From: Colwellia sp.
GTDB lineage: Bacteria; Pseudomonadota; Gammaproteobacteria; Enterobacterales; Alteromonadaceae
Direction of reading: 5' to 3'
Length of the DNA stretch: 64,000 nt
NCBI GenBank assembly: GCA_013215295.1
Contig: JABSOZ010000017.1
Location: 1 to 64,000, forward strand
Shown here: in pieces, positions 1-21,042 of the stretch
Position numbering within the stretch: position 1 is the first letter of the stretch
How the letters are laid out: each line of letters opens with the position of its first letter
Program-made: the position numbers and the translations under genes
The notes under the pieces: generated by a model
What the model saw: only the letters and a program-made list of their open reading frames with translations
Told to the model about the DNA's origin: nothing
Databases searched by the model: none

Positions 1-471
1 AAAGAAATTAGTGAGTTGTTTAATGCCTTGCCAGATGCAGAGCTTTACAATTCATTACCGGGTACTGGCCCGTGTTTAGCTCCTAGGTTACTAGTAGCTA
101 TTGGGGAAAACCGTAGTCGATTCAATAGCGCATCGGAAATTCAAATGTATGCAGGGATAGCACCCGTAACAGTGCGTAGTGGTCAAAAGAGCTGGATTCA
201 TTGGCGATATCAGTGTTCTAAATTTACTCGCCAATCATTTATAGAATGGGCGACTAAAAGCATAAGGCAATCTTATTGGGCGGAAATTTATTATCAGCAA
301 CAAAGGGAAAAAGGCAATACCCACCAGGCAGCTGTGCGTTCGCTAGCATTCAAGTGGATACGGATCGTATTTCGATGCTGGAAAACTAAAGAGCCATACA
401 ATGAAGCCAAGTATTTAAAAGCGTTGAGCGACAGAAATTCTCCATTACTTTTTAAAGAAAAAGCTTGTTAA
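1..471 (+). CDS. IS110-family transposase, C-terminal part (cut by window edge)
   Basis: The reading frame is open to the left edge, so the gene starts outside the window and only about 156 C-terminal residues are seen. They match the Transposase_20 (IS116/IS110/IS902) domain: a helix-hairpin-helix-like LPGTGPCLAPRLL segment, then the AGIAPVTVRSGQ and WIHWRYQCSKFTRQSF stretches that contain the conserved serine region of IS110 enzymes. The family moves circular intermediates using a RuvC-like N-terminal DEDD domain, which is not visible here. The first in-window start-like codon (TTG, base 16) lies inside the domain and is not a real start. The bases after the stop look like the non-coding right end of the element, but its tip cannot be placed. 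Family call is confident; whether the element is complete is unknown. Confidence 0.85.
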   Translation, partial: KEISELFNALPDAELYNSLPGTGPCLAPRLLVAIGENRSRFNSASEIQMYAGIAPVTVRSGQKSWIHWRYQCSKFTRQSFIEWATKSIRQSYWAEIYYQQQREKGNTHQAAVRSLAFKWIRIVFRCWKTKEPYNEAKYLKALSDRNSPLLFKEKAC

Positions 472-2274: not shown

Positions 2275-3109
2275 TTTATTTCCTTGAATTTAATAATATC
2301 ACTGTTTTTAATTTCAAATCAAACCAAAACTCATCATATCATTTAGTATCAAAAGGTCAACGGGATATACATAATCACATGTTTTATATGAGTTAATTGG
2401 TATTTTTACTGTAGCTATAAATATTTATATTTAGCGAACAGTTGACCCTAAGGAAATGAGACAACCACAGCCTCTAATGCGCACAAAGTGATCATATTTA
2501 TTAGTGGTAAACCTAATGTTATTAGGTGACAGTATTAGATGATAATGACTGGCTGTTCTGATGTAATTAGGTGGCACAAATGATGTAATTGTCCACTAAT
2601 CTTGAAACGAACACAAAGGGATGAGATAAGCAGTAATCAATAAGATTTAAAAGGGCCCCTCGTTATAATCATAACATTCAAGGTGCCCCTATGGTGCCCC
2701 TCATCACATTGAAGCCCTTTAGTTATATAGATTTAGATCCAACCGAGCATAGGCGCACAGGATAACTTGTGGGATATCATAAGGTTAAATGTAAATCCGT
2801 TCAATGTAAAGAGGAATTAATCACTAAAAGTAACGACTAATATATTGGTCAATTATACGGTTTGTTTTACTATTAAACAAAGAAAATCTAGCAGTTGAAT
2901 TATGATAACTATTGCCACAAACGCGACATTAATCTGAAGACATTTTTGATGGCAATCATGTCAGTTTTACTTGGAGAAAGCAGTCATTAATAAAAAAGCA
3001 CCGACCAAACTGGAAGATGCTTCTTGATGATTGTCGACGACTTTGGGCTAAATGGGTTCATTCAGGCATACCGCCATCGATAATTAATTTCGATAATAAG
3101 GAAACTAAT
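2275..3109. other. gene-poor stretch holding repeat copy A and a gene remnant
   Basis: After about 200 bases of AT-rich DNA upstream of the lipoprotein gene, this stretch is filled by dispersed repeat copy A and then a short open frame without a start codon, described separately. No intact gene, RNA gene or terminator was seen. Confidence 0.6.
2478..2919 (+). repeat. dispersed non-coding repeat, copy A (long form, one iteron missing)
   Basis: About 442 bp, nearly identical to copies B, C and D over their shared parts. The left end reads TGCGCACAAAGTGATCAT and the right end ATAACTATTGCCACA; these ends are imperfect inverted repeats of each other (about 14 of 21 positions) and give TG...CA tips. 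The left third holds degenerate 21-23 bp tandem units around the core ATGTTATTAGGTGACA. One 23-bp unit present in B, C and D is absent here. The copy contains the 144-bp segment (2750-2893) that C and D lack. No open frame of note lies inside. Likely a non-autonomous mobile element or the remnant of transposon ends; this is inference. Confidence 0.8.
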
Positions 3110-3136
3110 TTAAGATTGTTTCTTAAATCGACGTGA
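2933..3136 (+). pseudogene. unrecognised gene remnant, C-terminal fragment
   Basis: An open frame of about 67 codons with no start codon at its head begins 13 bases after repeat copy A and runs to a TGA inside the end of the convergent PEP-CTERM gene. It encodes a basic, tryptophan-rich peptide containing VSFTWRKQSLIKKHRPNW, then LLDDCRRLWAKWVHSGIPP. The composition looks like real protein, perhaps the tail of a DNA-binding or transposition protein, but the family was not recognised. It may be what is left of a gene cut by the repeat. The alternative is a chance open frame. Confidence 0.3.
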
Positions 3137-3775
3137 TGCTAAACCCATCAAGCCTAATGCGAAAATAGCTAAAGTAGATGGTTCTGGGACCTGACTAACC
3201 CGAACTAACGCATGAGTCTGTATCGGGCCATTACCAATATCATCATTAAAGATATTGGTAAAGTCGTAACCACCTCCGACACCAAGATTTCGACTGAAAA
3301 CACCTTTAGATCCGTTTATTTGTTGGTCTATGCTGTATAGCCCAAAAAATGCGGTATCGCTCGACCCAACTTCATCTATGGAACCATATGCGATCCAGAA
3401 TCCATAACTGACATCACCATTGAGACTCGTCATTTGCGTACTCCCAAAATTATTATTTAACCAATTACTTCCATCTACATTAGCTGCATGTGACCCTTCT
3501 TCCTCTCCCCATAAGCTGTCAAATAATAAATTGAAGTCGCTTTTTTTAGCGTATCTCCATCCATCATATAAACCGCCAGATTGCATTTCGCTCAACATCG
3601 TTGTACGGCTAATATTGGTAAGGTCATGCCATGTATGCCACTCTAAACCACCTAAATTTACGTTTTTACCAAGATCGGTTGTATGACTTCCAACTATTAA
3701 TCCTGCACTTGCAGTGAAGCTGCTCACCGACATCATAATTATCGTAAAAGCTGCACTTAAAAATCTAAACTTCAT
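3110..3775 (-). CDS. PEP-CTERM sorting domain protein
   Basis: Product of 221 residues. It has a signal peptide (residues 1-24, ending TASA) and, at the C-terminus, a textbook PEP-CTERM signal: VPEPSTLAIFALGLMGLASR followed by a basic tail. Such tails are recognised and cleaved by an exosortase (EpsH/XrtA type) during export, usually linked to exopolysaccharide production. The central region (WHDLTNISRTTMLSEM, DGWRYAKKSDFNLLFD) resembles DUF1566-like surface domains also found in nearby genes. The start is backed by AAGGAATAA upstream. No exosortase or polysaccharide genes are in this window, so the processing enzyme must be elsewhere in the genome. Confidence 0.85.
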   Translation of the reverse strand: MKFRFLSAAFTIIMMSVSSFTASAGLIVGSHTTDLGKNVNLGGLEWHTWHDLTNISRTTMLSEMQSGGLYDGWRYAKKSDFNLLFDSLWGEEEGSHAANVDGSNWLNNNFGSTQMTSLNGDVSYGFWIAYGSIDEVGSSDTAFFGLYSIDQQINGSKGVFSRNLGVGGGYDFTNIFNDDIGNGPIQTHALVRVSQVPEPSTLAIFALGLMGLASRRFKKQS

Positions 3776-4340
3776 TTTTATTCCTTTTAGTTTATTCTTC
3801 TTATATCTATAGTGAGTTGTTTTTAATTTAAAATTTTCATGTTAAAGCTAGTAGGCAAAATTCAGACCAAGACAATAAACATTAACAATTTCAATAAAAT
3901 ACCTTTTCCATTATTTTTTATAATTTACATAATGTAAAGATAATCGACACTGGTTGATAAGTATACACATGATTTTATTAGAGATTTATGCTCTAACTTC
4001 TGTAAATGGATTATTTAGCGAAAACTTATCCGAAGAGCGGTATTTATGTATCCATACATGAATATTAGAGAATGGAATGGGCACCTAAAAAGGTCCTTAT
4101 TGGGATATGTAGTTATTTTTATCTAACGTCTGCTCCTCGTTAATAAGAAGACCTCATATAACTCGTTAGGTTACAGTCTGCACTGCGCACAATGAAGACA
4201 TTAGTCATTAAAGCTACAAGGTTGGTTCAGATTATATTTTGTATGGATAACGCAGCAATAGACGGCTAAGTAACGCCTAAACCTAGTCAACCGTTTGAAA
4301 ATCCACTGCTATTCACTGACGATACGTTGAAATTCAAATT
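3776..4340. other. intergenic, no gene seen
   Basis: About 565 AT-rich bases between the PEP-CTERM gene and the first small gene. Both strands were read for open frames with ribosome sites, terminators and copies of the dispersed repeat; nothing supportable was found. Confidence 0.5.
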
Positions 4341-4508
4341 TCACAAATCGACTACACAAGAAACTTGGCTGCCCACAGGGTTTTGTTCATTAAGAATTTC
4401 CCATTCATCCAAAAGGTGGAGGTACTCCTTTAATTCATAAGGGGAGATAGTTTCATTAAATGCTTTTTCTGAAAGTGTATCGAGGCGTGCAAAGTCTTGA
4501 TTATCCAT
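4341..4508 (-). CDS. small acidic hypothetical protein (55 aa)
   Basis: A 56-codon frame starting with ATG and preceded by AATAAGGAATATTAAA, a usable ribosome site. The product begins MDNQDFARLDTLSEKAFNE and continues with YELKEYLHLLDEWEILNEQN. It is helical and strongly acidic, with no signal peptide or membrane segment. The amino-acid make-up and the ribosome site favour a real gene. The family is not named here; the DFARLDTLSEKA..E...P.ELKE pattern is compatible with a short cytoplasmic protein family of gammaproteobacteria (recollection, not a search result). A second small gene of similar size and orientation lies about 240 bp upstream in the direction of transcription, and the two may form a pair. 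Confidence 0.5.
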   Translation of the reverse strand: MDNQDFARLDTLSEKAFNETISPYELKEYLHLLDEWEILNEQNPVGSQVSCVVDL

Positions 4509-4745
4509 TTTAATATTCCTTATTAATGGCCTGATTAACTATAGGGTAGAACAGAATGGCTATTAATCAATAAATAAGGTAATCCAAAGATGGAACACTT
4601 TTTTTTGCTTGTAATACTATTAAGTCAATACGCCTGATGTATATCAGCGCCATTTGAGAACCAACGGGATAGACTGCTTTATTTGCCTATCTGTAGAACC
4701 CCAATACAATATATTGCACTGAACTCTTTTTAACCCGATACCTCT

Positions 4746-4910
4746 TTAATTTGATAAAGAGGCGGTGACTTTATATTCATACAAATCAGCCAAAGGTAGC
4801 CAAACTTCCTCAAACAACAGATTCTCTTTCTTGGTATCTGAATCCGTTGATTTAATAATATCAATCGCTCGCTGGTACAAATATTCTTCAAGCTCCAGTT
4901 CTTTAGTCAT
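4746..4910 (-). CDS. small acidic hypothetical protein (54 aa)
   Basis: A 55-codon ATG frame with the strong ribosome site GGAGGA seven bases upstream. The product starts MTKELELEEYLYQRAIDIIK and ends LYEYKVTASLSN. It is acidic, probably all-helical, and has no export signal. The strong ribosome site and balanced residue composition support it as a genuine small gene. No family was recognised. Same strand as the neighbouring 55-aa gene, whose start lies 238 bases downstream; the gap has no clear terminator. The two could be a small-protein pair, but there is no motif to support a toxin-antitoxin call. Confidence 0.55.
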   Translation of the reverse strand: MTKELELEEYLYQRAIDIIKSTDSDTKKENLLFEEVWLPLADLYEYKVTASLSN

Positions 4911-5980
4911 TTTGATATTCCTCCACTGATGAATATTTTCATATTACATGATTTAACAATATTAAATGTTGCTTCTGGTTACGAGTAGGCATTGGAGTTA
5001 TAAAAGTATCGGTCTCAGTAATTCCTGCCCACTTGAATACTTATTAATCTAGTTGAATTTCTTTTAATTTCAAGTAATTAAACTTACATTATTTTCTAAG
5101 TGTTACAATGTTTCAGGATATTACTATGAAGTCTCAGCCCGCCTTCCAAAGCAGAACTAGAATAGCCTTTAATTTCAATAACTTATTATTCACTTCATTG
5201 TGGTGACAGTATTAAAGATAATTCTAAGTAATATAACGAAATTGTTTCATTAGAAAATATATGGCAAATGTTTTGGATCTAATGTCTTCGATGCGCACAA
5301 AGTGATCATATTTATTAGTGGTAACCTAATGTTATTCAGTGGTCGCAGTAAATGTTATTAGGTGACAGTATTAGATGATAATGACTGGCAGTTCTGATGT
5401 AATTAGGTGGCACAAATGATGTAATTGTCCACTAATCTTGAAACGAACACAAAGGGATGAGATAAGCAGTAATCAATAAGATTTAAAAGGGCCCCTCGTT
5501 ATAATCATAACATTCAAGGTGCCCCTATGGTGCCACTCATTACCTTACAGCCCTTTAGTTATATAGCTTCAGATCCAATCGAGCATAAATTCACAGGATA
5601 ACTTGTGGGATATCATAAGGTTAAATGTAAATCCGTTCAATGTAAAGAGGAATTAATTACTAAAAATAACGACTAATATATTGGTCAATTATACGGTTTG
5701 TTTTACGATTAAACAAAGAAAATCTAGCCGTTGAATTATGATAACTATTGCCACACAGCTGCCCTCATTATTAGAGCTAAATACTTCACTTTTATGTCCG
5801 TTATCCTTGAAGATAGCTGACATTAGATGCATATTTCTGAGGCGTGCCCCCCTTTGCGACATAGAAACCTCTAATCAGGTGGCCAATTTAACAATGTCAC
5901 TACACTTATTGAAGAAATTCGACATGGTAGAAACTACGTCAAAATAAGGAGGCTAGAATTAAGAATAATACCTTGTGGCG
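4911..5980. other. gene-poor stretch holding repeat copy B
   Basis: About 380 bases of AT-rich DNA without a gene, then dispersed repeat copy B, then about 225 bases before the stop of the beta-barrel gene. A 70-codon frame begins inside the tail of the repeat but has no ribosome site and is not taken as a gene. Confidence 0.55.
5292..5755 (+). repeat. dispersed non-coding repeat, copy B (long form, full iteron set)
   Basis: About 464 bp and the most complete copy. Left end TGCGCACAAAGTGATCAT, right end ATAACTATTGCCACA, giving TG...CA tips. Six degenerate units of 21-23 bp follow the left end, with cores such as TATTTATTAGTGGTAAC, AATGTTATTCAGTGGTCGC, AATGTTATTAGGTGACAG and GATGTAATTAGGTGGCAC. 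The 144-bp segment at 5586-5729 is shared with copy A. No direct target duplication could be seen in the flanks. Confidence 0.82.
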
Positions 5981-6829
5981 TTAAAAACGATAAGAGCAAG
6001 CTAATTTTGTAGTATAAAGTTCGTCTGCATAAATTAAAACCTGTGGCTCGTATACATGTTTAATAACTGAGAAATTTATCCCACAGTGTGTCTGTGAATC
6101 CAGAATTAGACGATAACTGACTGTGGCAACGTTTTTTCTATACCCGCCTGGCTCCTGATCATCTCCTGCTTTTAACCGTGATATTCCAATGGATATATGA
6201 TGTAAATCTGCATGATAATTTATCGACATTGCCCATAAAAAACCTTGTCCATCGTGGTTAAGACGCGCTCTAACAGTATTTGTTTGCTCGGCCGCGGGCT
6301 CATCGTCTACTTCATAGAAATATTTAGCATATTCAAATGAAACTAGAAATGAAAAAGGATTATGAAAAAAGTTTATGTTCTTTTCTAATTGAAGACCTGA
6401 GTGCAACACCCAATGCCTATCATTATTCTGCGGGCCATTGAAATCAAGATCAGCGCCGGCTAGCCAACTGAGTGTTTTTTTATTACTGTGTTCAAATAAC
6501 GGCTGAGACAAAGTTAACGATGAACCAGTAGAAAAAGGACTCCTATTACTATCAAAACGTTCGGGGTTCTTTTCCCATTTTAGCTCAGTATAAAAATATA
6601 TATCGGGGTTAAAACTGTTGTTACTTTCAGTGTTTTTAATATACAAATAGGAAGACATTAATCCTAAGGCGTGAGGTACTTTACCATTATCAAAGAACAC
6701 ATTACTGTCTGGGTAATGCTCTTCAAAAACACCTATAGATAGGGTGCTTGAAGAGTCATCAGCACTGGCAGGTGTAATGGTTAACCAAAGCGCGAATAAA
6801 CACGGTAATTCAAATAGTAGCTTTTTCAT
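5981..6829 (-). CDS. outer-membrane beta-barrel protein, unknown function
   Basis: Product of 282 residues with a clear signal peptide (MKKLLFELPCLFALWLTITP, cleavage near ASA-D, residue 23). The mature part alternates polar and hydrophobic residues with many aromatics (DIYFYTELKWEKNP, WVLHSGLQLEKN, FLWAMSINYHAD) and ends in the C-terminal phenylalanine (CSYRF) typical of BAM substrates. The aromatic girdles and final Phe point to a small barrel of about 12 strands. It loosely recalls phospholipase A1-like or porin-like proteins, but no catalytic motif was found. Standing alone between two repeat-bearing gaps, its neighbours give no functional clue. Confidence 0.65.
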   Translation of the reverse strand: MKKLLFELPCLFALWLTITPASADDSSSTLSIGVFEEHYPDSNVFFDNGKVPHALGLMSSYLYIKNTESNNSFNPDIYFYTELKWEKNPERFDSNRSPFSTGSSLTLSQPLFEHSNKKTLSWLAGADLDFNGPQNNDRHWVLHSGLQLEKNINFFHNPFSFLVSFEYAKYFYEVDDEPAAEQTNTVRARLNHDGQGFLWAMSINYHADLHHISIGISRLKAGDDQEPGGYRKNVATVSYRLILDSQTHCGINFSVIKHVYEPQVLIYADELYTTKLACSYRF

Positions 6830-7348
6830 TGATGATTAAATGTCAGGTTGAAAAAACAAGCTGGCTGCAACAAATATATTTCCAGCACGAATAAATTAAA
6901 GTATAGCTACTAATAAATATTTTACTCATCGGTGATATAAACAGGAGTTATGACCGGTAAATACTGGGTATCAATTTTTCCTCATTGGCGTTATTTTCAT
7001 CCGTCAATCATGCAGAGCCTGAGGTATAAAGCATCCCTCCCAAAAATGTCCTGTGTATTTGTCTTCTTTGTTTGCTTGTCGGGCTATCGGCTCGTTCAAT
7101 GAACGCATAAACCCGCTAATGTCCGTTAACCGGCACCAACTTGTCGTTAGGATATTTTTGAAATATTGAATTTATAAAGTAAAGCTCAAAGTGCATGTAT
7201 CGGACTGCTCAAAGGGCAGTATCTGCCACAGTGATCTTGCCCCATATAAATGGAACAGAAGTACCCCAAAAGGACTATAATTAAGTATATAAATTCGAAG
7301 GTATCCCTTTAGTACTCCTTCACCTCTTACAGAGCAGTAAAAACGGGA

Positions 7349-7390
7349 GAGTCTGTCCAATCGAGCAGTTGACACATGACAGCTATTGCC
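7349..7390 (+). repeat. dispersed repeat, 3' terminal fragment F
   Basis: About 40 bp matching the right tip of the short-form repeat: TCCAATCGAGCAGTTG followed by ACATGACAGCTATTGCCACT. It differs from copy C at about one or two positions. The left part of the element is missing, so this is a truncated relic. Confidence 0.65.
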
Positions 7391-7671
7391 ACTTTTAAGA
7401 CCTAAGACTTTAGAACCATAACGTCAGCTCAAGGTTAGTAAGAGGTCATAAATTACGAGCTTGAATACTATATCTAGCAATCACTATTAGCACAAAGCAG
7501 TCATTACCTGATTAGCTATTGCAATTGATTCGGATTATGTTTTATACCACTAACGTCCCGCTAAATAATGGAGTTACTTGGCATGTGTTTTTTTGCAAAA
7601 GTCGTCAACTTAAAGAATCCGTATTGAGCGATTATTTGTTGCAGCTTGGATTAATTATATTGGTGTCATAC

Positions 7672-7698
7672 TCTAATAATATGACACCGCTGTTATCC
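7672..7698. other. perfect 9-bp inverted repeat (hairpin)
   Basis: GGTGTCATA and TATGACACC are separated by 9 bases. No T-run follows on either strand, so it is not an obvious intrinsic terminator. It could be a protein-binding site or RNA structure; nothing in the context decides. Confidence 0.3.
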
Positions 7699-7867
7699 TT
7701 ATTTGTCTTTAAATAGCAGCTAAACCCAAGATAATTATTAACTTAAAAATGCCTAACCAAATTGCCGCTTGCCACTAAACTTTCAGCAACAAACAATATC
7801 AAAAAGCTAGAAAACAGCTTTACTATCTGCGTATTAATGATTCGGGCTGTAAAATCCCCCCCGTTCT

Positions 7868-9361
7868 TTAGGTTTTGTTAAGCTTTTTTAATTGCTCTTT
7901 AGCGTGTTCATTCTCAGGCTTTAACCCAAGTACTTTTTTATAATGGTCAACAGCTTTTTCTGTATGACCTAATAACCAATAAGTTTCCGCCAAGCTATCA
8001 TGTGTATTGGCACTTAAAGGGAACAGATAGGTATTCAATTTAAAAACTTCTAACGCTTGTCGCTTTTTCTTTTGATTAATCAGTTTATAACCCCAAGTAT
8101 TTAACTCGTCCTCTGCAAACTTTAACTTATTAGTTTTCTGCAACTCTTCCACAACTTGAATAGCCCTTTTATCCCCTTTTGATTCTAACGCCTTCCAAAG
8201 TGTTTTTATGGTAGGAGGCAAGCCAAAACCATTCGCCGCTTTCATTTTGGGAATATAAAAACCTGCAATTTCATCGATAAAGTGTGATGGAATTGCACCC
8301 ATTAGGTTAGTCATTACCACTATGGATAGATCATCTTTTGGATAAACAAAAAATGCAGCACGATCTCCTCCCGCAGGAGCAACAGCAGGATGTTCAGATC
8401 TACCAACTACAGGCCACCCTAATGCATATCCGTTTAACAAATTATTAAAGCCTTTAGTTTTACCATTAGTGAGTACTGCTGGCGTCCATAGAGTCTCAAT
8501 ACTTGAAGGTTTCTTTAAGAGCTCTCCGTTTTGCAAGGCAATAACCCAATTAGCAATCTCTGTAGCGGTGGAACTCATGCCTGCCGTTGTACGAAGAAAC
8601 TCAGGAAAGTCACCAGCCTTGATGTTAGATATTTTTCCCGACCCATAATAATAAGTATAACGACGAGCAGAGTGCGCTATAACGTCTTTAAGGTTTGAAA
8701 AGCCAGCTTCTTCAGTTCTTTTCATGCTTGCTCTGCGTAATTGATTTTGCGTTATATATTCAATAAAACCTTGCCCACTTACGCTGTCTATAATTTTACC
8801 GATCAGCAAATAATTCGTTTGGTTATAACGAAACTGGGTATTAGCTGCAAAATCAAGTGGTTGTTGTTTAACCATTTGCCATGACGCCTCCGCGCCATCA
8901 TTCGAAAGTAGCTGGCCATTGTTACTATTCATGATATCTGGAAGCCCAGAAGTATGGGTTAATAACTGCTTTACTGTGATATTTTTCCACTCAACGGGGA
9001 GGTCTGGTAAATATTTAGATATCTTGGCAGATACCTCTAGTTTACCTTGTTCAACCAATTGCATTACCGCAACACCGGTAAATGCTTTAGTAATTGAGTT
9101 AATCGAAAATACTGTGTCATCGTCTACTGCAATAACATCTTGAATGTTGGCGAGTCCATAACTGGCCGTTTTAACTATTTTGCCATTTTTAACAACAGCC
9201 AGTTGTAAACCGGGAATTTTCCTTTTTACCATTTCACCGCGCAGAAAGTTGTCTATTTCGTCTGCCTGTACAAAACTACTTGTTAGCCCCATTAATAGGC
9301 TTAGTGAAAGTGCACTAACTATCATTAATTTTGCAATATTACAACTAATTGAACTACTCAT
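7868..9361 (-). CDS. serine hydrolase, beta-lactamase/PBP4* family with C-terminal TPR
   Basis: Product of 497 residues with a signal peptide (about 1-33). Residues 35-370 form a class C beta-lactamase-type (PF00144) domain: SxxK motif SITK at 89-92 with the nucleophile Ser89 and Lys92, the second motif YNQ at 179-181 (more often YxN), HTSGLPD at 136-142, and a third-motif region PAGGDRA at 329-335. Residues about 390-495 are helical repeats of TPR type (AETYWLLGHTEKAVDHYKK). Likely a periplasmic peptidase, esterase or peptide hydrolase; substrate unknown. The Q in place of the usual N of YxN is a mild departure. A membrane-bound AraC-type regulator is encoded just upstream on the same strand and may control it. 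Confidence 0.82.
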   Translation of the reverse strand: MSSSISCNIAKLMIVSALSLSLLMGLTSSFVQADEIDNFLRGEMVKRKIPGLQLAVVKNGKIVKTASYGLANIQDVIAVDDDTVFSINSITKAFTGVAVMQLVEQGKLEVSAKISKYLPDLPVEWKNITVKQLLTHTSGLPDIMNSNNGQLLSNDGAEASWQMVKQQPLDFAANTQFRYNQTNYLLIGKIIDSVSGQGFIEYITQNQLRRASMKRTEEAGFSNLKDVIAHSARRYTYYYGSGKISNIKAGDFPEFLRTTAGMSSTATEIANWVIALQNGELLKKPSSIETLWTPAVLTNGKTKGFNNLLNGYALGWPVVGRSEHPAVAPAGGDRAAFFVYPKDDLSIVVMTNLMGAIPSHFIDEIAGFYIPKMKAANGFGLPPTIKTLWKALESKGDKRAIQVVEELQKTNKLKFAEDELNTWGYKLINQKKKRQALEVFKLNTYLFPLSANTHDSLAETYWLLGHTEKAVDHYKKVLGLKPENEHAKEQLKKLNKT

Positions 9362-9510
9362 TATTTTTCCTCTACATACTAAAAATTAAATCCAATACTT
9401 AAAATCCCAGGCCTGGAATCGCCAAGGAAAAAGTAATAATTTGAATACAGTGTTGTCATACGTAAATCGAAAACTCGTTAACAACGGGGCAATAATGGCG
9501 TAGTTTTAAT

Positions 9511-9530
9511 ATGTATTCGACCGAATACGT
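9511..9530. promoter_or_regulatory. palindrome in the promoter region of the serine hydrolase gene
   Basis: GTATTCG and CGAATAC separated by two bases, within a 20-bp imperfect palindrome. It sits 150-170 bases upstream of the serine hydrolase start and just downstream of the AraC-type regulator gene. A candidate operator on position and symmetry only; AraC proteins more often bind direct repeats. Confidence 0.35.
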
Positions 9531-9599
9531 AAAGTCGGACGTGGCATTTCTAGGGAGACAGAGCGATTAATGTAATTTATATTCATTCATCGTAATAAT

Positions 9600-10739
9600 T
9601 TATGAATGTAGTTTACGATATTGAGAAGGCGTCATTAAAAGGTGCTTTTTAAAGGCGGAATTGAACGATGATTTTGAATTGAATCCGACTTCGTACAATA
9701 TCTCTAATACCGTTTTCTGTGGTTGCCCATCATTTGTGATTAACATTTTGGCCGCAAAATTTATTCGATATGAATTTACGAAATCAAAAAAATGTTGTCC
9801 TATTATTTTGTTGATACTGAGTGAAACTTCATTTCTAGGTAGGTTAATTTGTTTCGCTAAAGTTTCTAAACTCAAAGAGGGATCTAAAAAGGGTTTATTC
9901 TGTTGCATGTAGTCCCTTAATCGCAGAACAATCGCATCGTACTTTTCAGTTTCAATAGCGCTAAACTTAGAATCACTTGTCGGTTTTGTGACCGAAGCTT
10001 GTTCATCAATGACTTCTATGGTTGAACTCACCCCGCTAAATAGTGTGGGCTTATGCAATGCTTGCCATAATATCCAACAAATACTCAATAAAGCGGAAAT
10101 AATTAATATTGTCAGCACTAACCTTTCATACATATATAATTCGGAAAACCTGAAATACATTCGTCCTAAACCTATGACATAGCTGAGAGTAAACAGGTAT
10201 ATCAGTTGGGTTAACCAACTCCTGTTTAATCTATCTGCATCAGAGTAATTTTCAACAACAATTTTTCGATACCTTATCAAGTGCTTATAAATGACTAAAA
10301 GGTAAAAGCCAAGTTGGATAAATGTCATGAAATGAATAAAGGTTATTTCAGGGACATTAGTGAAATTGTCATAAACAAGCTGCTTTGCAGCATTATCTAC
10401 ACTGAAAAAGTTGGGTACCATCACCAAGCCAGCAATGACGTAAGGGATGGCGTGAACCAAGTGTTTAATTTTTAATTTAAAGTCATCGTAAATAGCCGCT
10501 TTAACATAAAGGTATAAAGTAGGGCCCGTAAACAATGAAAAATTAAACCTGAGTATATCAAAATCGAGATAAGCGCGGTAAAAGTCACTAAATATAACGT
10601 CACTCAGATCAATGACTACAACCAATAAATAAGTCGCAAGTAGCTTATGACTTAAACGGTTGCCAGTGCTGAGACTACAAAGAAAGGTGGCCACTAATAA
10701 ATGAGAAAAAAATACTACTAAGACAATGTTTTCAAACAC
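9600..10739 (-). CDS. membrane-anchored AraC-family transcriptional regulator
   Basis: Product of 379 residues. The N-terminal 230 residues contain about six or seven hydrophobic helices (IVLVVFFSHLLVATFL, LLATYLLVVVIDL, LVLTILIISALLSICWILW). The last 110 residues are an AraC-type double helix-turn-helix (LETLAKQINLPRNEVSLSIN, then TVLEILYEVGFNSKSSFNSA and FKKHLLMTPSQYRK). This architecture is common in marine bacteria, where the membrane part is thought to sense an envelope signal. The GTG start is supported by AGGAAAG six bases upstream. It is followed on the same strand by the serine hydrolase gene with a 240-bp gap carrying a palindrome, so that hydrolase is a plausible target. Confidence 0.85.
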   Translation of the reverse strand: MFENIVLVVFFSHLLVATFLCSLSTGNRLSHKLLATYLLVVVIDLSDVIFSDFYRAYLDFDILRFNFSLFTGPTLYLYVKAAIYDDFKLKIKHLVHAIPYVIAGLVMVPNFFSVDNAAKQLVYDNFTNVPEITFIHFMTFIQLGFYLLVIYKHLIRYRKIVVENYSDADRLNRSWLTQLIYLFTLSYVIGLGRMYFRFSELYMYERLVLTILIISALLSICWILWQALHKPTLFSGVSSTIEVIDEQASVTKPTSDSKFSAIETEKYDAIVLRLRDYMQQNKPFLDPSLSLETLAKQINLPRNEVSLSINKIIGQHFFDFVNSYRINFAAKMLITNDGQPQKTVLEILYEVGFNSKSSFNSAFKKHLLMTPSQYRKLHS

Positions 10740-11637
10740 TAATGGCTTTCCTGTTTTAACTGCTACTGATGATTTAGTTATAATTATGAAATTGAAATTA
10801 TTAACGGTTGCGGTGCTATGGATTATAACAACGCCGAGGATATTTTACCCTTTTCAAGTTCTTCTATTATTTCATTACTGACTAAAATTAGAGGAAACAA
10901 CTATTCCAACTCAAGAACTATTATACAGTTCACTAACAGGCTTTTAAAGCAAAGTGGTAAACATTAAATGTTATGTCGGACTATTCGTAAACTAACAGCA
11001 CTAACCTAGACTGATTAAGTATCGTCTATCTCAGGACTAAAAGACTATATTGTCGGAAGAAGTCATAAGGCAGTCATTGTTGCTAACGACCGCTTTAAAT
11101 CTTGGAGCTGCCATTAGTAAATCAAAAGCTACCGTCAACAATGCGCACAAAGTGATCATATTTATTAGTGGTAAACCTAATGTTATTCAGTGGTCGCAGT
11201 AAATGTTATTAGGTGACAGTATTAGATGATAATGACTGGCAGTTCTGATGTAATTAGGGGGCACAAATGATGTAATTATCCACTAATCTTGAAACGAACA
11301 CAAAGGGATGAGATAAGCGGTAATCAATCAGATTTAAAAGGGCCCCTCGTTATAATCATAACATTCAAGTTGCCCCTATGGTGCCACTAATCACCTTGAA
11401 GCCCTTTAGTTATATTGCCTTAGATCCAATCGAGCAGTTGATACATGACAGCTATTGCCACTTAGCCGAAGTACAATACCTCCAATTTTTGGTAGCTGGA
11501 ACATCAGTTTCAAAGTCATAAGCGGACGTAAGGAGAATCAATTACAGCTTTGCGTATCCAAATCCAAAATTTGGTCCAAAATGGGGCTTGAAATTCTTAT
11601 CATCTAAGGTTTGATAAAGTGTAGATCATACTTAGGA
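10740..11637. other. gene-poor stretch holding repeat copy C
   Basis: About 400 bases upstream of the repeat have no secure gene; a 49-codon ATG frame at 10818-10967 has no ribosome site. Repeat copy C follows, then about 175 bases with nothing recognised before the end of the GGDEF-EAL gene. Confidence 0.5.
11142..11462 (+). repeat. dispersed non-coding repeat, copy C (short form)
   Basis: About 320 bp. Same left end TGCGCACAAAGTGATCAT and same six iteron-like units as copy B, with AATTAGGGGGCAC in place of AATTAGGTGGCAC in one unit. It lacks the 144-bp segment of A and B: GATCCAATCGAGCA runs straight into GTTGATACATGACAG. The right tip is GCTATTGCCACT. Confidence 0.82.
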
Positions 11638-13872
11638 TTAGCTAGCCTGAGTTAACGGTGTCACTACACAATACTGCGTAGACTTTACATGTATCGCCTT
11701 GTTGTTTTCAAAGAGCTCAAACTGCTTTTTATAGAGATTATCATTATTATTTAGTACGTCACTTATCGCTTGTGCCCGAATAGGTTCAGAAAAATAATAA
11801 CCTTGTATATCATCAACTTGATTTTCCTCTAAAAAAGTCAATTGTTCTACCGTTTCTACTCCTTCTGCAATAACTTGGATAGACATGGTTTTTGAAATGG
11901 CTAAAATAGTACGAATGAGCTCTTCATCTTGCACATCCTTACCTATATCTTTGATAAAGCTACGGTCAATTTTGATAACGTCTACTGGCATTTTTCTGAG
12001 GTAATCCAGAGATGAGTGGCCAGTGCCAAAATCATCAATGGAAATTTTCACACCGAGAGCATGAATTTTTTCGAGTTCAGAGAAAAAAATTTTATGATCA
12101 TCAAATGTAGCGGTTTCAGTCACTTCTATTTCTACATATTCGGGCTTTATTCCATGCTTATTAATCGCTTTAACGAGCTTTTCTCTAAATTCACTTGTCC
12201 CTAATTGGCGAACAGATACATTAATGGCGGTAACCATACCTTTAAAGTAAGGAAGTGTTTGCCAGTATGATATTTGTTGGCAAACATTGTTTAAAATCCA
12301 ATTTCCAAGTTCGATGATTTGCCCAGTCTGTTCGGCAATTGGTATAAAGACATCTGGAGAGAGCATATCCCCCTCTTCAGGAAACCAACGTATTAATGCT
12401 TCACAGCCGACCATTTTCTTTTGCAACAATGAAATTTTTGGCTGATAAAGTACCGTTAACTCATTATTTAAAATTGCTTTGGAAAGCAGCATTTGAACCC
12501 GTTGGCTTTGCTCTGCTTTATCCTGCATTTCTTTGGCAAAAAATTGAAAGTTATTACGGCCTTCTGATTTTGCCTCATACATTGCCGTATCAGCCGCTTT
12601 TAAAAGATCATCCATATTCATCGAATTAGGATCATAGAAAGCAATACCAATGCTGGTACTGACTTCTATTTTTATACTATTAAGTTCGAGGGGTTCAGAT
12701 ACGGAACTTAGAATTTTTTGTGCGACGTTCAGAACATTAATGTTTGCTGGTATGTCTTGCAGAATAATGGCAAATTCATCCCCCCCCATTCGAGAGATTA
12801 GGTCACCTTCCCTTAAAATATGGGACAATTTCTGACTAATATTCTGGAGCAATAAGTCGCCAATATCATGACCATACTGATCATTAATAAATTTAAAATG
12901 ATCAATATCGAGAAACATCACCGCGAGTGTCGTATTAGATCGTTTTACGCGTATGATTGATTGATTTAAGGCGTCATAAAAATATGCACGGTTTGGAATA
13001 TTCGTTAGATAATCAAAGTTGGCTAAGTGTAGTAACTTAGCTTCAGTTTCTTTCTCTTGCGTGGTGTCTTTAAATGTTAAAACCGCTCCATTGATTTCAC
13101 CATTACTTTCTCCATTGAGCTCTCTAGTGACGTCACAAGAGTAATTTGAATGAAATATATTACCAGCCAGTGATTGCCAATTGCCACTGCCTTTTAAGTT
13201 TGTTTTTCCTAAACTACTTGCTTCATGAAAACTAGAAGTGAGTAAGTCAATTAGCTCACAATTGGAGTCTTTATAGTCCTGAGTTTCTGGTGTATTCTGG
13301 TTATGTAATATTAAGAAGTCTTGTAATTTTGCTGAAATATTTTCACTATCGATAGCGAGTAATTCTAAAGCCTTTGGATTGGCAAAGGTAATATTTCCAT
13401 CTAGATCAATCCCTAAAATCCCTTCACTCACGCTATTGAGTAAAATGTTTAATCGGGCAGTAGAGTCTTCAGCAATCCGACGGTGCTCATCTAAAGTAAT
13501 AAATTGTGCGACCTTTTTGGTGAGTATAATGTCGTCAACTGGCTTGGTAACAAAATCAACAGCGCCTGCCTCATAAGATTTAGGCAGCGCGTCACTGTCA
13601 TTATCATTGCTTGTTACCATTACAATAGGAATATGTTTAAACCGTGGATTGCTGTGTATAAGATTAACAACTTCATAACCTTTCATTCCTGGCATTTCGA
13701 TATCCATTAAAATGACAGCAAAGTCATGATTAAGTACTTTACCGAGCGCGTCTTTTCCTGATGATGCTTGGATTATAGTGATATCTAAAGGAGAGAGAAT
13801 GTGTTGAAGAATATTACGTTGGCTTGCAACGTCGTCAACAATCAGAATACTGCTTTTTTTGATATTATCCAT
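11638..13872 (-). CDS. response regulator with PAS, GGDEF and EAL domains (c-di-GMP turnover)
   Basis: Product of 744 residues. REC receiver at 1-125 with acidic pair D13-D14, phosphoacceptor D57 (LMDIEMPG) and K110. A PAS region lies at about 140-275, then GGDEF at 285-450 with the intact motif GGDEF at 363-367 and an intact inhibitory I-site REGD at 354-357. The EAL domain spans 460-710, with EALIRW at 491-496 and DDFGTG at 613-618, all as in active phosphodiesterases. Both catalytic halves therefore look competent, and phosphorylation of the receiver presumably sets the balance of c-di-GMP synthesis and breakdown. The protein has no membrane segment. The partner kinase is not adjacent. Confidence 0.93.
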   Translation of the reverse strand: MDNIKKSSILIVDDVASQRNILQHILSPLDITIIQASSGKDALGKVLNHDFAVILMDIEMPGMKGYEVVNLIHSNPRFKHIPIVMVTSNDNDSDALPKSYEAGAVDFVTKPVDDIILTKKVAQFITLDEHRRIAEDSTARLNILLNSVSEGILGIDLDGNITFANPKALELLAIDSENISAKLQDFLILHNQNTPETQDYKDSNCELIDLLTSSFHEASSLGKTNLKGSGNWQSLAGNIFHSNYSCDVTRELNGESNGEINGAVLTFKDTTQEKETEAKLLHLANFDYLTNIPNRAYFYDALNQSIIRVKRSNTTLAVMFLDIDHFKFINDQYGHDIGDLLLQNISQKLSHILREGDLISRMGGDEFAIILQDIPANINVLNVAQKILSSVSEPLELNSIKIEVSTSIGIAFYDPNSMNMDDLLKAADTAMYEAKSEGRNNFQFFAKEMQDKAEQSQRVQMLLSKAILNNELTVLYQPKISLLQKKMVGCEALIRWFPEEGDMLSPDVFIPIAEQTGQIIELGNWILNNVCQQISYWQTLPYFKGMVTAINVSVRQLGTSEFREKLVKAINKHGIKPEYVEIEVTETATFDDHKIFFSELEKIHALGVKISIDDFGTGHSSLDYLRKMPVDVIKIDRSFIKDIGKDVQDEELIRTILAISKTMSIQVIAEGVETVEQLTFLEENQVDDIQGYYFSEPIRAQAISDVLNNNDNLYKKQFELFENNKAIHVKSTQYCVVTPLTQAS

Positions 13873-14682
13873 TATCTGTGATAATCCATTGTAATCATAG
13901 TGCTACTAATTATAGATATTTATTATGAATTCGCTAATTTACTTACGTATGTGGCAATTATTTCGATAAGCAGGAAAATTCAAAGTTGTCTTTGAATATA
14001 GTCCTACATGAAAACATTTTTATACGGTAGAAGTTAACTAAGAGAATTCAGCCTAAGATGACCGCTATTGAACAGACTGTTGAAGTTGAATTTAACCATG
14101 ATTCACTTCCGCTTAGCGCACAAAGTGATCATATTTATTAGTGGTAAACCTAATGTTATTCAGTGGTCGCAGTAAATGTTATTAGGTGACAGTATTAGAT
14201 GATAATGACTGGCAGTTCTGATGTAATTAGGTGGCACAAATGAAGTAATTGTCCACTAATCTTGAAACGAACACAAAGGGTTGAGATAAGCGGTAATCAA
14301 TCAGATTTAAAAGGGCCCCTCGTTATAATCATAACATTCAAGGTGCCCCTATGGTGCCGCTCATCACCTTGAAACCCTTTAGTTATATAGCTTTAGGTCC
14401 AATCGAGCAGTTGATACATGACAGCTATTCACCACATTACGGTCGTTAGCAAGACTTTCAGAGATGATCACTTTGTGCACTTTGCTCAAATGGGAATGCC
14501 TAATTTTACTTACCGCAATTGACTTGATAGCAGACATCCAATACTGTGATTAACACTTCTTATTACAATATATGCGGATTCTAATAAGTAATTCTAAGAA
14601 TAAAAACAACTGAAGAAATTGATAATTTCTCCCGATAATACAACGGGCAGATGGACTAATAAATTTATATAAAGGGAATTGA
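13873..14682. other. gene-poor stretch holding repeat copy D
   Basis: About 240 bases of AT-rich DNA upstream of the GGDEF-EAL gene, then repeat copy D, then about 200 bases leading to the ribosome site of the next serine hydrolase gene. No further gene, terminator or RNA gene was seen. Confidence 0.5.
14115..14480 (+). repeat. dispersed non-coding repeat, copy D (short form with an extra inverted tip)
   Basis: Left end AGCGCACAAAGTGATCAT, full iteron set, no 144-bp segment. The usual right tip is altered (GCTATTCACCAC). About 45 bases later at 14464-14480 stands ATGATCACTTTGTGCAC, the inverse of the left tip with 16 of 17 positions matching, giving an outer pair of inverted ends about 365 bp apart. 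A perfect 9-bp hairpin (TTCAAGGTG with CACCTTGAA, 14337-14373) lies in the middle. Confidence 0.8.
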
Positions 14683-15762
14683 ATGAAAATTAAATTGTTA
14701 GTCGCTCTTGCGGCGTTATTGTTTTCGCAAGTCGTAGTAGCAATGGAAAGTAATAATATCGAGCGAGCGATATCAGATATAAAAAACAACCTTTATACGG
14801 GTATCGATAGTGTTCTTGTCTATCAAGATAATAAACTTGTAACGGAAAACTATTTTAACGGCTATTCAAGGTTTAAACATCATCATACACGTTCAACCTT
14901 CAAAAGTATTACAGGAATACTTGCGGCAATCGCTTTTGATAAAGGCATATTGGACCCAGAAGAGCCTGTTGTGCCGTTACTTTCCCGTTTCCATAAACTT
15001 GAATCGATTAATGCTCTTAAAGCAAGTATCAAGGTTAAGGATTTGTTGCATATGGTATCCGGATTGGATTGTGCAGAAATGCCGGGCAGCAAAGGCACTA
15101 ATCATGAATTTGGCATTGATGAAGGTCCTACTCCTTTAAAATACGGTTTTTCTATTGCTATGGTTATGGAGCCAGGAAAAGAGTGGCACTATTGTAACGC
15201 GAATACGTTCTTACTCGGCGTTACAATTTCAGCGGGATTGGAGCGTGCTGGTACCCCAGGAATCGATAAGTTTTCGAAAAAAAATCTATATTCACCATTA
15301 GGTATTATTGAGTATCGAACCTTTACCACACCAGACGGTTATCTATATGCTGCCGGAAGTGCACGATTTGCTCCACATGATCTCGCCAAGTTTGGCCTTG
15401 TTGTATTAAATAAAGGCATATATAACAAAAAACAGATTGTTTCCCAAAAACATATCCAAGCAATACTCGATGGTGTTGTAGATACACATTGGACTTGGAC
15501 CGACAATATCCAAGGACACACTCCTTTTAAAGAGCGATATGGTTATCAATGGCATCGTACGGTTTTTGAAGTAGAAGGCACACAAATTCCCGTGAGTCAT
15601 TCATGGGGCAATGGTGGCCAATTTATCTTTGTTGTGCCAAGTCAAGACAAGGTTGTTGTGTTTACTGGAAGCAATTACAACAACATTAACAAACAGAAAA
15701 AGGTCTTTGAAATTATGTATAAATATTTACTTCGGGATAATGAAAAATTGACGTCTCTATAA
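14683..15762 (+). CDS. serine hydrolase, beta-lactamase family
   Basis: Product of 359 residues with a signal peptide ending near VVVA (residue 20). It has the class C beta-lactamase-type fold (PF00144): catalytic STFK at 71-74 (SxxK), YCN at 170-172 (YxN) and HSWGNGG at 306-312 in the position of the third motif. All three catalytic motifs are present, so an active periplasmic serine hydrolase is expected, but such proteins are usually esterases or peptidases rather than antibiotic resistance enzymes. The start has AAAGGGAATTGA directly upstream. No linked regulator is seen; the gene stands alone after repeat copy D. Only distantly similar to the larger serine hydrolase about 6 kb to the left. 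Confidence 0.85.
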   Translation: MKIKLLVALAALLFSQVVVAMESNNIERAISDIKNNLYTGIDSVLVYQDNKLVTENYFNGYSRFKHHHTRSTFKSITGILAAIAFDKGILDPEEPVVPLLSRFHKLESINALKASIKVKDLLHMVSGLDCAEMPGSKGTNHEFGIDEGPTPLKYGFSIAMVMEPGKEWHYCNANTFLLGVTISAGLERAGTPGIDKFSKKNLYSPLGIIEYRTFTTPDGYLYAAGSARFAPHDLAKFGLVVLNKGIYNKKQIVSQKHIQAILDGVVDTHWTWTDNIQGHTPFKERYGYQWHRTVFEVEGTQIPVSHSWGNGGQFIFVVPSQDKVVVFTGSNYNNINKQKKVFEIMYKYLLRDNEKLTSL

Positions 15763-15934
15763 AATACCTTCTTTAGGCTAGTGAGGATTGGTTGTATATC
15801 CAACAACGTCCGGTCAGTGGCTACGGCCCTTAAAACCAATTACCCTAATGGCAGCTTATAATTAGGATATTCAGATCATATGCTTATTGCACACGAATAT
15901 CGTGCGCTAATTATCTTGATGAATTCCGCTTCGC

Positions 15935-18900
15935 TTACCTTCCTCGTGTAGGTGGTGCACAATCATCAGGTATCATAGAATTTATCCAATCATAAATTAA
16001 AGCCACGCCTTCAGTATGCACAATAGACTTACCTATGAGTGGCATTTCAACGCCAGCACTATGAGAGAGCATTCTTGTATATAAGATAGAGGCTTCAGCA
16101 TTACCCGGTACGATATCGTATTCATTATCACCCATAACTTCAGCATCGATTATGGTTGGTTTTTTACACACACCCGTGCTGGTATTGCCCTCTTCTTGAT
16201 TGTCCGTCAACCATTGCTCAGCGTTCAACCATAGCTTGGTCGAAGCCGCCAGCCCATCATTGTTGTTATGACAATGAGCACAGTTAGTCTCCAAATATGC
16301 CAATGCACGGTTTTCGAGAGTACCGTCCTCATCATCACTCCATACCGGATGGCGAGGTACAACATTAAACAAATCCACAGGTAGGTTCGCTAAAATTCCG
16401 GCATCATCCTGAAAATACTGCAATTGATTTTTTACGCCATTGGCATATTCAATATCATTATTCAAACGGTAGGTACGCGGCCCAAGAGGCTTATCAGTCT
16501 GACGGTTATGGCAATTGACACATTGACTGCTGTTGGGAATGTCATATTCTAAGGATTTAGTTTCGCCGATAACATTGATCCAGCTCACTTGTTTGCTACC
16601 ACCGTTTAAAGCTAACGTAGCCTGACCATTATCTTGCCAAATATAAGGTAATCGAGCCCATCCCTCTATTCGCTTAATCAACAGTCTTGTTTCAATTAAA
16701 TCAACAACTTGAGATTCAGACTCCTTGGTTTCATCATCGACATAATAAAAGGTTTTGGTAATGATAGTGCCGACAGGATATTCAAGATCGTCTTCGCCGT
16801 CGATATATTGAATTTTTTCGCCGTCCGGGACAAATATTTGACGATGTTTATGGGCATAATTAGTAAATAACGGTGTGGTTAATTCGAATACCTGCCCATT
16901 ACCATTCATTTCGCCGAGAGGATAACTACTCTCTGCAAATAATTGATAATCACTTAAATTAGAACAATCAGAATCAGCCGCCTGGTGATTTACAACGCCC
17001 GGCGTACCAGAATTACAATAGTCAGTACCAGCATCAACATTTACGGCCAGATCACTTATCCAGTTCATCACAACCAATGCATCTGCCGCACTGAGGGTGT
17101 CGACAAACGGCATTGATGAACCACAATCTTGAGCACCTATCAATTTTTGATAGAGCAAGGAACCCTGTGGGTTACCTGGGTCTACTCGGGGAAGAGTTGA
17201 GCCGTTACAGCTTGAGGCGACATTTATTAAATTATTTTTCCATATCTCGGGCGACAAATCCAATCCACCGCTGGCACCACTGCCGACATGGCAATCTCGA
17301 CAATTATTATCGATAATAACCTTCAGCATAGGCTCATCGGCAATATTAATATTATCATCATTAGCTCCTGTATCCTCACGAACGACAAGTCCATTGATCC
17401 AAGCAAATATCATATGAGTTGCTTCTGCATTAAGGTGAAAGTCTTGTAAGCCTACTGGCATGGCATCGCCGCAATTAGCATCATTGGTTATCTTGCGATA
17501 TAAAAGAGAATTATTGGGTTCTCCTGGAACGACCAACTTTAGTTTTTCTTCAAACTCAGGCTCAGCTGTACAATCAGAATCAACATTAATCAGTTGATCT
17601 TTCCAGTCATCTCTTTCTAATACTAATTCACCACTAACACGTCCATCAACACTGTGGCAGGCATAACAACCACTGGTAAGAAATATCAATTCCAGATCAC
17701 TGTCAGTGGGATTATTGACATCAAATTTGGGGCGTACTAGAGGATTAAGTTCTTGAGTAGCACAATCATCACTACAGGCCGCAATCTCGGTAATAATAGC
17801 TTTATGGTCAGAAGCAAACAGAGGACGATTATCCTCATCTCTGCCAAAATCGGTATCGTCATAATAAGAATTTATCAGCGCAACATCTTTTATAAAAACA
17901 TGATCGACACCGCCGGTGCGAACAATCTCCTCAGGGTTTATGACCTGCCAGCTTTCTACAAACCCTGATTTTAACAGCATATGAATCGACTCAACTTGCG
18001 CATGGCCGGCATTACAGTCACAGGTAAATATTTCCCTGAAACTACCAAATTCCACTTTGTGTTTTTCAATCAGCTGTAACAATTTATCAGACTGTAAAGC
18101 ATGCTGACAAACCGCCTTAGGTTCATTTTCTGGCGCGATCATATGAGTGTTATAGACCATATACTTTTCCATGCCTTGTTTGTCTTCTAAGAAAACCCAA
18201 TTAACATGACGAGTATCGGTATTGATCGGCTCTGGCGCTACAAAGCCACACTCGTAGCCTTTTTCTAGGGCCTCAGCAACAGGAACGACCATTTTTTCAA
18301 CACCGTTGGCTAAAACAGTAAAGCGGTCTGTGTTGACTAATATGGGGTTTTTATTTGTCGAGTCTTGATCTTCAGTTGCGACTCCTGGTGAATAATCCCA
18401 GCGATAAACGGCATAGTTTGAGTCTTGATAATGGTTACTTAGATCTTTTTGTTGGCTGTCATTATCTATACGGCCTGTTCCAGATAACTCTTGAATACCT
18501 ACTACATCAGGCATATGTGCAGCTATTACCTGATAAAATCGTTCTTCACGGCCCTCTTTCCAGTCACCGGTACCCTGATCAATTTGGCCATTAAAGGTCA
18601 TCACCTTAAATGAAGCACTGATACCTGTTCCCAATTCACCACTGCCATATCCTTCACCGATCCCTTCATCAGGATTGGAAGGTTCAGAATCATCACACTC
18701 GGAGGTATTTAGGCAGACCGAAATTGAAAATTCAATACTATCGCTCAAACTGCCATCAGAAACGGTGATAATGATATTACCGTAATCGCCAACATCATCA
18801 CTAGTGGGTGTGCCCGTTAGCATGCCATTACTGTTATCAAATGACGCCCAATCAGGAAGATTACTGACTTCAAAAGAGATAACATCGCCATCAGGATCCG

Positions 18901-19459: not shown

Positions 19460-20098
19460 CTCTGTTTCCTATAAGTTGCACACACTACACTTAAGCATTA
19501 GAGTCCAGTATATTGATCTGGCTTTGTTATATGTATCTATCCTTGATATCGTTCCTGATAATTATCAAATGATCTATTTTAATTTTCCCTCAAAAAAGTA
19601 TTTTAAAGTTATAGTTTTGATAACTTATTACTATATATTTAATGACCTTTGACCAAGTCAAAAGGATGGCGACATTACCACCATGGCATGTTAATTTGAT
19701 CGAAAAGTTATCTACACAGTGTTCAAATAATGTGCAAAAGTCAAGACTTGATATCACACAACAGAAATGAAAATTCGACTTACCCCGTCATAGATGGTCA
19801 CAAATTTTCTGCAAAACAGTCGTTGCGACTTCAGTCATCTTAGACTCACCTGTAGTAGAAAAGTATAGATATTTTATGCAGTAAAAACTAACCTTTGAAG
19901 TCATATCAAAGCAATAATGTGAACGACTGCTTTGGTGTGTGAGTTGTTGCCAGTCATGAGAATTTTGGTTAGGTAAAATCTATGTCTTCTGAAATGCTCA
20001 TTGCTGCCAGTGGAAGTCAATCTCAGAACGCTAACTGACAAATGGGTCATTAATACCCGTTGTTTTTTTATCATTTTAGAGCGAAAAGTAGAAGTAAG
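19460..20098. other. intergenic, with a lone terminator-like hairpin
   Basis: About 640 bases without a supportable gene. The only structured signal is an intrinsic-terminator-like hairpin near its right end, in plus orientation. An unannotated short transcript is possible but no promoter was identified. Confidence 0.45.
20041..20069 (+). terminator. orphan intrinsic terminator-like hairpin
   Basis: AATGGGT and ACCCGTT pair (one G-T pair) around a 7-base loop, followed by TGTTTTTTT... in plus orientation. No protein gene ends just upstream on this strand, so it could close a small RNA or be a relic. Confidence 0.4.
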
Positions 20099-20757: not shown

Positions 20758-21042
20758 ACTTCTTAATCCCTTGATAAATTTACTCACCCCCTCTTATATG
20801 CACGAAAAACAAATTGAAAAATTGTAATGCTTTAGTACTCCTTCTAAAAATCACCTGAGTAATAACTTGATAAATATTGCACTCGATAATCGAGTATGGC
20901 CATGTTATAAAAACGAATACAGTTTAATATCAACATCTATTATTAGGTATATAATATGAAATAGGATCAAATAAATATGAAAAATTAAGGCGTTCCACCT
21001 AAATATTCATTACAGCATTATAAATTGTTGACTAAGAGTAAA

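Follow-up and report, generated by a model that had tools for sequence, protein, structure and literature searches.

Non-coding repeats in a Colwellia genome as probable attachment junctions of tandem, mostly integrase-less genomic islands at the 5' end of dusA

Contig JABSOZ010000017.1 of Colwellia sp. (assembly GCA_013215295.1; referred to here as C9) was analysed over positions 1 to 64,000 of its forward strand, a stretch of 64,000 nucleotides (nt) that we call the window. It contains a family of repeats, which the original prediction regarded as an undescribed dispersed non-coding element with inverted ends, similar to a miniature inverted-repeat transposable element (MITE) or to the paired ends of a transposon that lost its interior. 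Each of these repeats consists of a left arm, a 12-nt core, TCCAATCGAGCA, and a right arm. The core or a near form of it is present in every repeat but E, where it is decayed. The repeats, termed junctions below, are the following:

2478..2919, plus strand: junction A; the left arm is a 142-nt repeat unit lacking 23 nt and followed by the beta1 arm, the core at 2738-2749, TCCAACCGAGCA, has one mismatch, and the long right arm is the DusA 5' end
5292..5755, plus strand: junction B; left arm as in A, exact core 5574-5585, long right arm
7260..7393 (left limit approximate), plus strand: junction X7; exact core at 7356-7367 between a beta3 left arm, of the kind also present at C4:184670, and a short right arm
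11142..11462, plus strand: junction C; exact core at 11425-11436 between a beta1 left arm and a short right arm
14115..14433, plus strand: junction D; exact core at 14398-14409 between a beta1 left arm and a short right arm whose tip is changed
25986..26415, plus strand: junction E; a beta2 left arm, frequent in relative G005, and a long right arm enclose a decayed core near 26235

A search of the same genome with copy B produced seven matches including the query itself: five on C9, one on contig C4, and one on contig C24. The copies predicted at 2478, 5292, 11142, and 14115 are real, with identities to B of 91-96% and E values ranging from 1e-133 to 1e-192. The copy at 2478 matches B over the whole length (91%), the similarity of those at 11142 and 14116 (96%) is confined to nt 1-294, and 25986-26415, rightly viewed as a diverged copy, matches in its right half only (89%). 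Homology to copy B is modular: it begins at nt 278 at C4:184666 and at nt 302 at 26253, and covers just nt 5-140 at C24:8812. Copies beyond the window are thus represented by C4:184666 (right part), C24:8812 (left 140 nt only), and junction C4:183007. The proposed plus orientation and location in gene-poor gaps were also confirmed, with all window copies on the plus strand and none of them overlapping an open reading frame (ORF) of at least 100 amino acids. Two limits needed correction. The segment 7349-7390, described as a 3' fragment, belongs to a whole junction at about 7260-7393 with another left-arm type, whose left side resembles C4:184670 and arrays in a relative. The last copy, said to end at 14480, ends near 14433; the segment 14424-14478 is a piece of a different genus repeat. 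Target duplications were absent from the flanks of junctions A-E, as had been noted. Rfam at gathering thresholds gave no match in the whole window, and a promoter scan of 2400-5800 revealed 16 promoter-like sites versus 15.2 expected.

The core is the reverse complement of dusA codons. An intact dusA is present on C4 of the same genome (minus-strand ORF at 1976-2986 of the C4 stretch L031, reading MSIPVKPLNSANPIDHRLSVAPMLDWTDRHCRYF.., with the core codons ..MLDW..); it is fused to the core and its product belongs to the Pfam family Dus (E 9.6e-89). A gene for a phage-type integrase adjoins dusA (plus-strand ORF, L031 3094-4164; Phage_integrase, E 4.9e-21). The stretch from the dusA core to the core at C4:183007 is 14.6 kb long and also holds genes of the Zot and Rep_trans families, a combination which we take to be filamentous-phage-like. 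The 12-mer was sought throughout the genome with up to one mismatch allowed, which gave 24 places; a reversed control pattern gave 14. All six exact cores are on the plus strand of two contigs, C4 (168407, 184670) and C9 (5574, 7356, 11425, 14398); two of the 18 one-mismatch cores are junctions (C4:183007, C9:2738), and the other 16 are scattered. The genome therefore has eight junctions with cores of at most one mismatch, six of them exact, or nine if the decayed E is counted, with the one at dusA included and the two contigs linked as follows.

16..471, plus strand: C-terminal part of an IS110-family transposase (PF02371), at the start of C9

The N-terminal part of an IS110 transposase (PF01548, 2e-13) is located at the end of C4. 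Since the parts of this gene lie at the facing ends of the two contigs, C4 and C9 are most simply read as neighbours, and they probably are.

Left and right arms of different type occur in various combinations across the core. We compared 60 nt to the left and 40 nt to the right of the core in 23 junctions (253 pairs), leaving out those at dusA itself. The set comprised eight junctions of this genome and those of four relatives from the genus: G005 contributed 10 (including one on a different contig of the metagenome-assembled genome (MAG) DT_20, counted with G005), G003 three, and G004 and G001 one each. In ungapped comparison, 32/253 pairs shared at least 75% identity in one arm and at most 50% in the other, and a single pair (A/B) reached at least 75% in both. 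With gaps allowed, one arm was at least 75% identical in 46/253 pairs with the other inside the 95% range of random window pairs (0.63, 0.65). For short right arms, the 40-nt sample runs into cargo, which lowers the identity. Junctions A and C, for instance, have a common left arm and diverge directly after the core, while X7 and C have a common right arm and diverge at its left edge. G004 and G001 share 93% in the right arm and 33% in the left, the pattern expected of the original chromosomal side. Other species carry these arm types too, in different orders. Likeness restricted to one side of the core makes segmental duplication and transposition of a single unit less likely; it marks site-specific recombination at the core.

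Two features of the arms that bear on their proposed role in attachment (att) sites were located in junction A:

2682..2700, plus strand: arm-type site GGTGCCCCTATGGTGCCCC; its equivalents, starting 56 nt left of the core, are at 5518, 7300, 11369, 14342, and 26179
2739..2780, minus strand: remnant DusA N-terminus, reading MISHKLSCAPMLGW; the counterpart in junction B reads MISHKLSCEFMLDW

The arm motif comprises 19 nt with two direct half-sites, GGTACCCCATTAGTACCCC, and its consensus was picked after viewing the junctions. Its geometry is fixed in most of them: the best match is at -55 to -57 in 15/21 junctions, 13/21 score at least 12/19 there, and five of six integrase-side arms reach this score at +129 to +139. 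A score of 12 at any position was found in 62 of 3000 random 120-mers from 26.5-64 kb of the window. We infer from the sequence that these candidate arm-type sites would bind integrase. Right arms are of three types, namely, an integrase type located next to the integrase gene, a long type, and a short type. The long right arm (A, B, C4:184670) reads MISHKLSC..ML.W in frame, close to the distal dusA remnant MISHKLSVAPMLDW of G004 and G001; this reading is missing from the short one (X7, C, D, C4:183007, and several junctions of G005). A replacement dusA 5' end is present at the C4 prophage, A, B, C4:184670, and in G003, and absent at X7, C, D, C4:183007, and the decayed E. The proposal that the repeats encode no protein is therefore correct in general but not for the right arms of A and B, which read the DusA N-terminus on the minus strand.

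The cassettes located between the cores of the window contain the following genes:

2750..5573, 2.8 kb: cassette A-B; PEP-CTERM protein gene 3110-3775
5586..7355, 1.8 kb: cassette B-X7; one protein, 5981-6829, with no Pfam match
7368..11424, 4.1 kb: cassette X7-C; serine hydrolase/beta-lactamase family gene (PF00144) 7868-9361 and AraC-type regulator 9600-10739
11437..14397, 3.0 kb: cassette C-D; response regulator-GGDEF-EAL protein 11638-13872
14410..26234, 11.8 kb: cassette D-E; PF00144 gene, putative Ig/cytochrome-domain protein, Cache-domain histidine kinase, TonB receptor

The genes are on both strands. No homologue of dusA integrases was detected in the window (tblastn with four dusA integrases, E 1e-5), and no recombinase family was recognized among the 11 main ORFs of its positions 1-26 kb; no dedicated search was made for transfer genes. 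With cores at both ends and no dusA-integrase homologue, the window cassettes agree with cis-mobilizable elements (CIME) in their att sites.

Similar arrays occur in relatives. Matches to copy B were found in 6/59 genomes of relatives, all from one genus (1/54 genera); all six examined genomes of this genus match, and three of the six have at least three junctions. The clearest picture is offered by G003, where the array is unbroken from dusA to zur on a single contig: dusA (11383-12372, Dus) is fused to a long-type arm, cores follow at 12306, 13458, 16538, and 21806, and zur (FUR family) is at about 26.7 kb. The cargo of this array encodes, among others, a TonB receptor, a LysR regulator, and a protein bearing the type IV pilin methylation motif, and gave no match to the four dusA integrase queries. 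G005 has nine ordered junctions on its own contig C9, followed by zur at 57513; dusA and an integrase gene are on its C37, and the first of the C9 junctions is accompanied by another, broken integrase gene. The nearest further core found is separated from dusA by 15 kb in G004 and by 36 kb in G001. G002 has a broken integrase gene, and no second core was found within the scanned stretch. A 16-nt core pattern was present in 47/118 Colwelliaceae genomes, with close pairs also in other genera (G126, G119, G031). A scan of 84,980 species genomes for the core with the short right arm revealed seven stretches, two of which were from one Colwellia MAG (DT_20). The other five (Melainabacteria, Chloroflexota, Verrucomicrobia, an unplaced bacterium, and Parabacteroides) were taken as chance matches. 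In G001, dusA (L057 1979-2964) reads as two separate frames, 219 and 103 amino acids long, which indicates either a sequencing error or a broken gene.

The repeat copies are very probably att junctions between genomic islands that stand in tandem, mostly lack an integrase, and were inserted at the dusA 5' end. A junction would then comprise the right end of one island, with its arm-type sites, the 12-nt dusA core, and a left end belonging to the following island; the long form of this left end would re-supply the start of dusA. Integration at one att site would explain both the single orientation and the missing target duplication. Integrases of neighbouring autonomous dusA elements, here the filamentous-phage-like prophage, may insert the integrase-less cassettes in trans and excise them, possibly as circles. 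The locus would then grow by accretion, as suggested for CIME, and the reassortment of arms is consistent with such mobilization by a neighbour. The idea of paired ends without an interior would hold in so far as two ends are joined in each copy, but the cargo lies between the copies and not inside them. Most likely, the locus is a gene-swapping site where small islands were added one after another, and not a new transposon.

Several observations weigh against this explanation. The core of junction E is decayed. In the gapped comparison, 3/253 pairs (A/B, C/D, and G005:3274/25641) reached at least 75% in both arms, and in BLAST, E was 83% identical to G005:14473 over 446 nt and 77% identical to both G005:25641 and 30057; such likeness over both arms, also between species, points to shared descent of whole junctions. 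The arm consensus is post hoc, the best match lies elsewhere in 6/21 junctions (five from G005, one from G003), and two of the 15 at the fixed place, C4:183007 and E, score only 10/19, which for the site of E at 26179 is the background level. One junction is located on another contig of MAG DT_20 (L086) with no link to dusA seen, and in G002, the right arm has a 71% match at C82:153754, a place adjoining a 142-nt unit and some 429 kb away from dusA. The link between C4 and C9 relies on two IS110 gene parts at contig ends, and a multi-copy insertion sequence could mislead. In this genome, zur is on C23 (48728-49159) and not on C9, and the far end of the array was not placed using zur, the maoP-like gene, and the 37.9-kb solute-binding-protein gene as markers. 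This differs from G001-G004, where zur is on the dusA contig; a rearrangement or a much longer array are both possible. Finally, integration at dusA does not by itself account for the sharp limits of the cargo, which starts and ends at identical short tips.

The tips are what favours a MITE-like element with inverted tips moved by a transposase. The left and right tips, picked beforehand by eye, agree in 12 of 18 positions when inverted, a value reached by 9 of 20000 random window pairs (26 of 20000 with sliding), and two units with different interiors, the 142-nt unit and a repeat of G003 (both described below), carry the left tip or its half. The left tip, GCGCACAAAGTGATC, also occurs without the rest of the element: its nine exact places in the genome comprise four in the window and five on other contigs that lack the remaining arm. 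A transposed unit would also leave unexplained the lack of target duplication and the switch of homology at an internal 12-nt core. Whole junctions were found on C4 and C9 only in this genome, their exact cores occur on just these two contigs starting from dusA, and copy B has no match outside the genus among the 59 genomes searched. We therefore regard a MITE or dispersed transposon as an improbable source of the whole copies.

Duplication of one locus followed by divergence would account for the pairs A/B and C/D being alike over both arms. It is contradicted by the reassortment of arm types across the core in 32 or 46 of the 253 pairs and by the same types standing in other orders in other species. 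Moreover, no long repeat linking cassettes outside the junctions was found among the largest 20 of 30 repeat families, and this origin is very improbable. The alternation of genes with repeats of the same orientation is also reminiscent of a chromosomal integron array with unusual attC sites, and integron integrases above the family cut-off were identified in four of six genus genomes, including this one. However, the only intI above the cut-off here is at the start of C16 (287-1240, L132; 447.8 bits) and not on C4 or C9, and the repeats beside intI in G001 have GGCGTT-type ends, unlike those of the junctions. The core belongs to the coding part of dusA, a tyrosine integrase gene lies next to it, and the cassettes are up to 11.8 kb long with genes on both strands. 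An integron is hence just as hard to credit as a duplicated locus.

The first 142 nt of A-D (TGCGCAC..GTCCA) occur alone at C24 and in the relatives G001-G004. This left unit is a separate repeat, non-coding and dispersed in the genus, which in A-D is joined to the left arm. Its copies at 5292-5432 of the window and in the stretches L006, L009, L011-L015, and L017-L019 contain internal direct repeats of about 22 nt, recognized by eye; the consensus fold is weak (-5.84 kcal/mol, covariation term 0). A shorter form of the tip, CACAAAGYGRTC, was detected in all six genus genomes at 6 to 44 places, compared to 1 to 6 for the reversed control.

A second array is present in G003 (C107, about 8195-33357, L091-L092), where a non-coding repeat of about 150 nt stands in one orientation mostly between gene blocks of 2-7 kb. 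It has 34 matches in G003, including 11 plus-strand ones on one 36.7-kb contig, and six short or weak ones in the genome studied here. Its inverted tip pair, CACAAAGCGGTC..GATCACTTTGTG, is 33 nt apart, and where copies are incomplete, their breaks tend to fall at two internal points, possibly those of another att core.

Tips are thus common to several genus repeats with different interiors. On this basis, one may tentatively imagine that Colwellia possesses an integron-like cassette platform operating with dusA-type integrases, in which exchangeable end modules (left tip-arm-core-arm-right tip) are placed on unrelated cargo at fixed short tips, with the same tip logic at a second site, the G003 repeat array. 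We consider this rather unlikely; if true, a second step would join cargo to att modules at the tips.

The interpretation as islands at dusA is in line with published systems. In Farrugia 2015 (PMC4482086), dusA islands and prophages are characterized by a single site in the dusA 5' end, imperfect direct repeats, an integrase, and a replaced dusA start, and the integrase is called their only universal common feature; the word 'tandem' is absent from the main text. The C4 prophage agrees with this description in its insertion at the dusA 5' end, the tyrosine-recombinase integrase beside dusA, and the new dusA 5' end. So do the direct repeats of the dusA 5' site, that is, the core at dusA, seven further junctions, and one decayed junction, likened to the published repeats by their description. 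Unlike the islands described there, most cassettes in Colwellia lack an integrase and stand in a long array. Two tandem islands at dusA, IEVpaBan1a/b, the second with two predicted integrases, are described for Vibrio in Durand 2021 (PMC8409611), as compared to nine junctions in one genome here (given the probable contig link), mostly without an integrase. Many tandem islands bounded by direct repeats of the gene end are reported at ssrA of Dehalococcoides, including 15 without an integration module, read as possible cis-mobilizable elements growing by accretion (PMC3146451). The window cassettes fit the elements proposed there, but that system employs a serine recombinase and ssrA, whereas tyrosine integrase, dusA, and long conserved arms on both sides of the core are characteristic of the arrays in Colwellia. 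Among the small tailless and filamentous prophages of marine Vibrio, some occupy the 5' end of dusA and complement the gene that they disrupt (PMC11630473); those at dusA are tailless, and no cassette array is described in the part of the text available. The dusA island model, tandem pairs at dusA, and long integrase-less arrays at ssrA are already published. No long dusA array, and no dusA array from Colwellia, was found in the published literature, most subscription papers lying beyond the search.

What appeared to be a repeat of no known kind becomes a record of island gain at one gene. The integrase-less cassettes, 1.7-11.8 kb in size, stand one behind the other upstream of dusA and carry ordinary genes for regulation, sensing, and transport. 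One core is common to cassettes with different arms, which makes mobilization in trans directly testable and suggests that dusA serves for the stacking of cassettes besides being a prophage site.

Some further features of the gene content deserve mention. Among 10 proteins examined with PADLOC (six from the window, four from C4), two from the prophage matched, and the GGDEF protein gave a marginal hit (E 1.4e-4). The former are encoded by a gene pair at L031 13372-15821 matching ShosT (7e-16) and ShosA (4e-76), a defence toxin-antitoxin system. In cassette D-E, an ORF of 1174 amino acids with two He_PIG (putative Ig) domains contains a direct duplication of 275 nt at 18717-19300, whose copies share 96% identity and are 309 nt apart.

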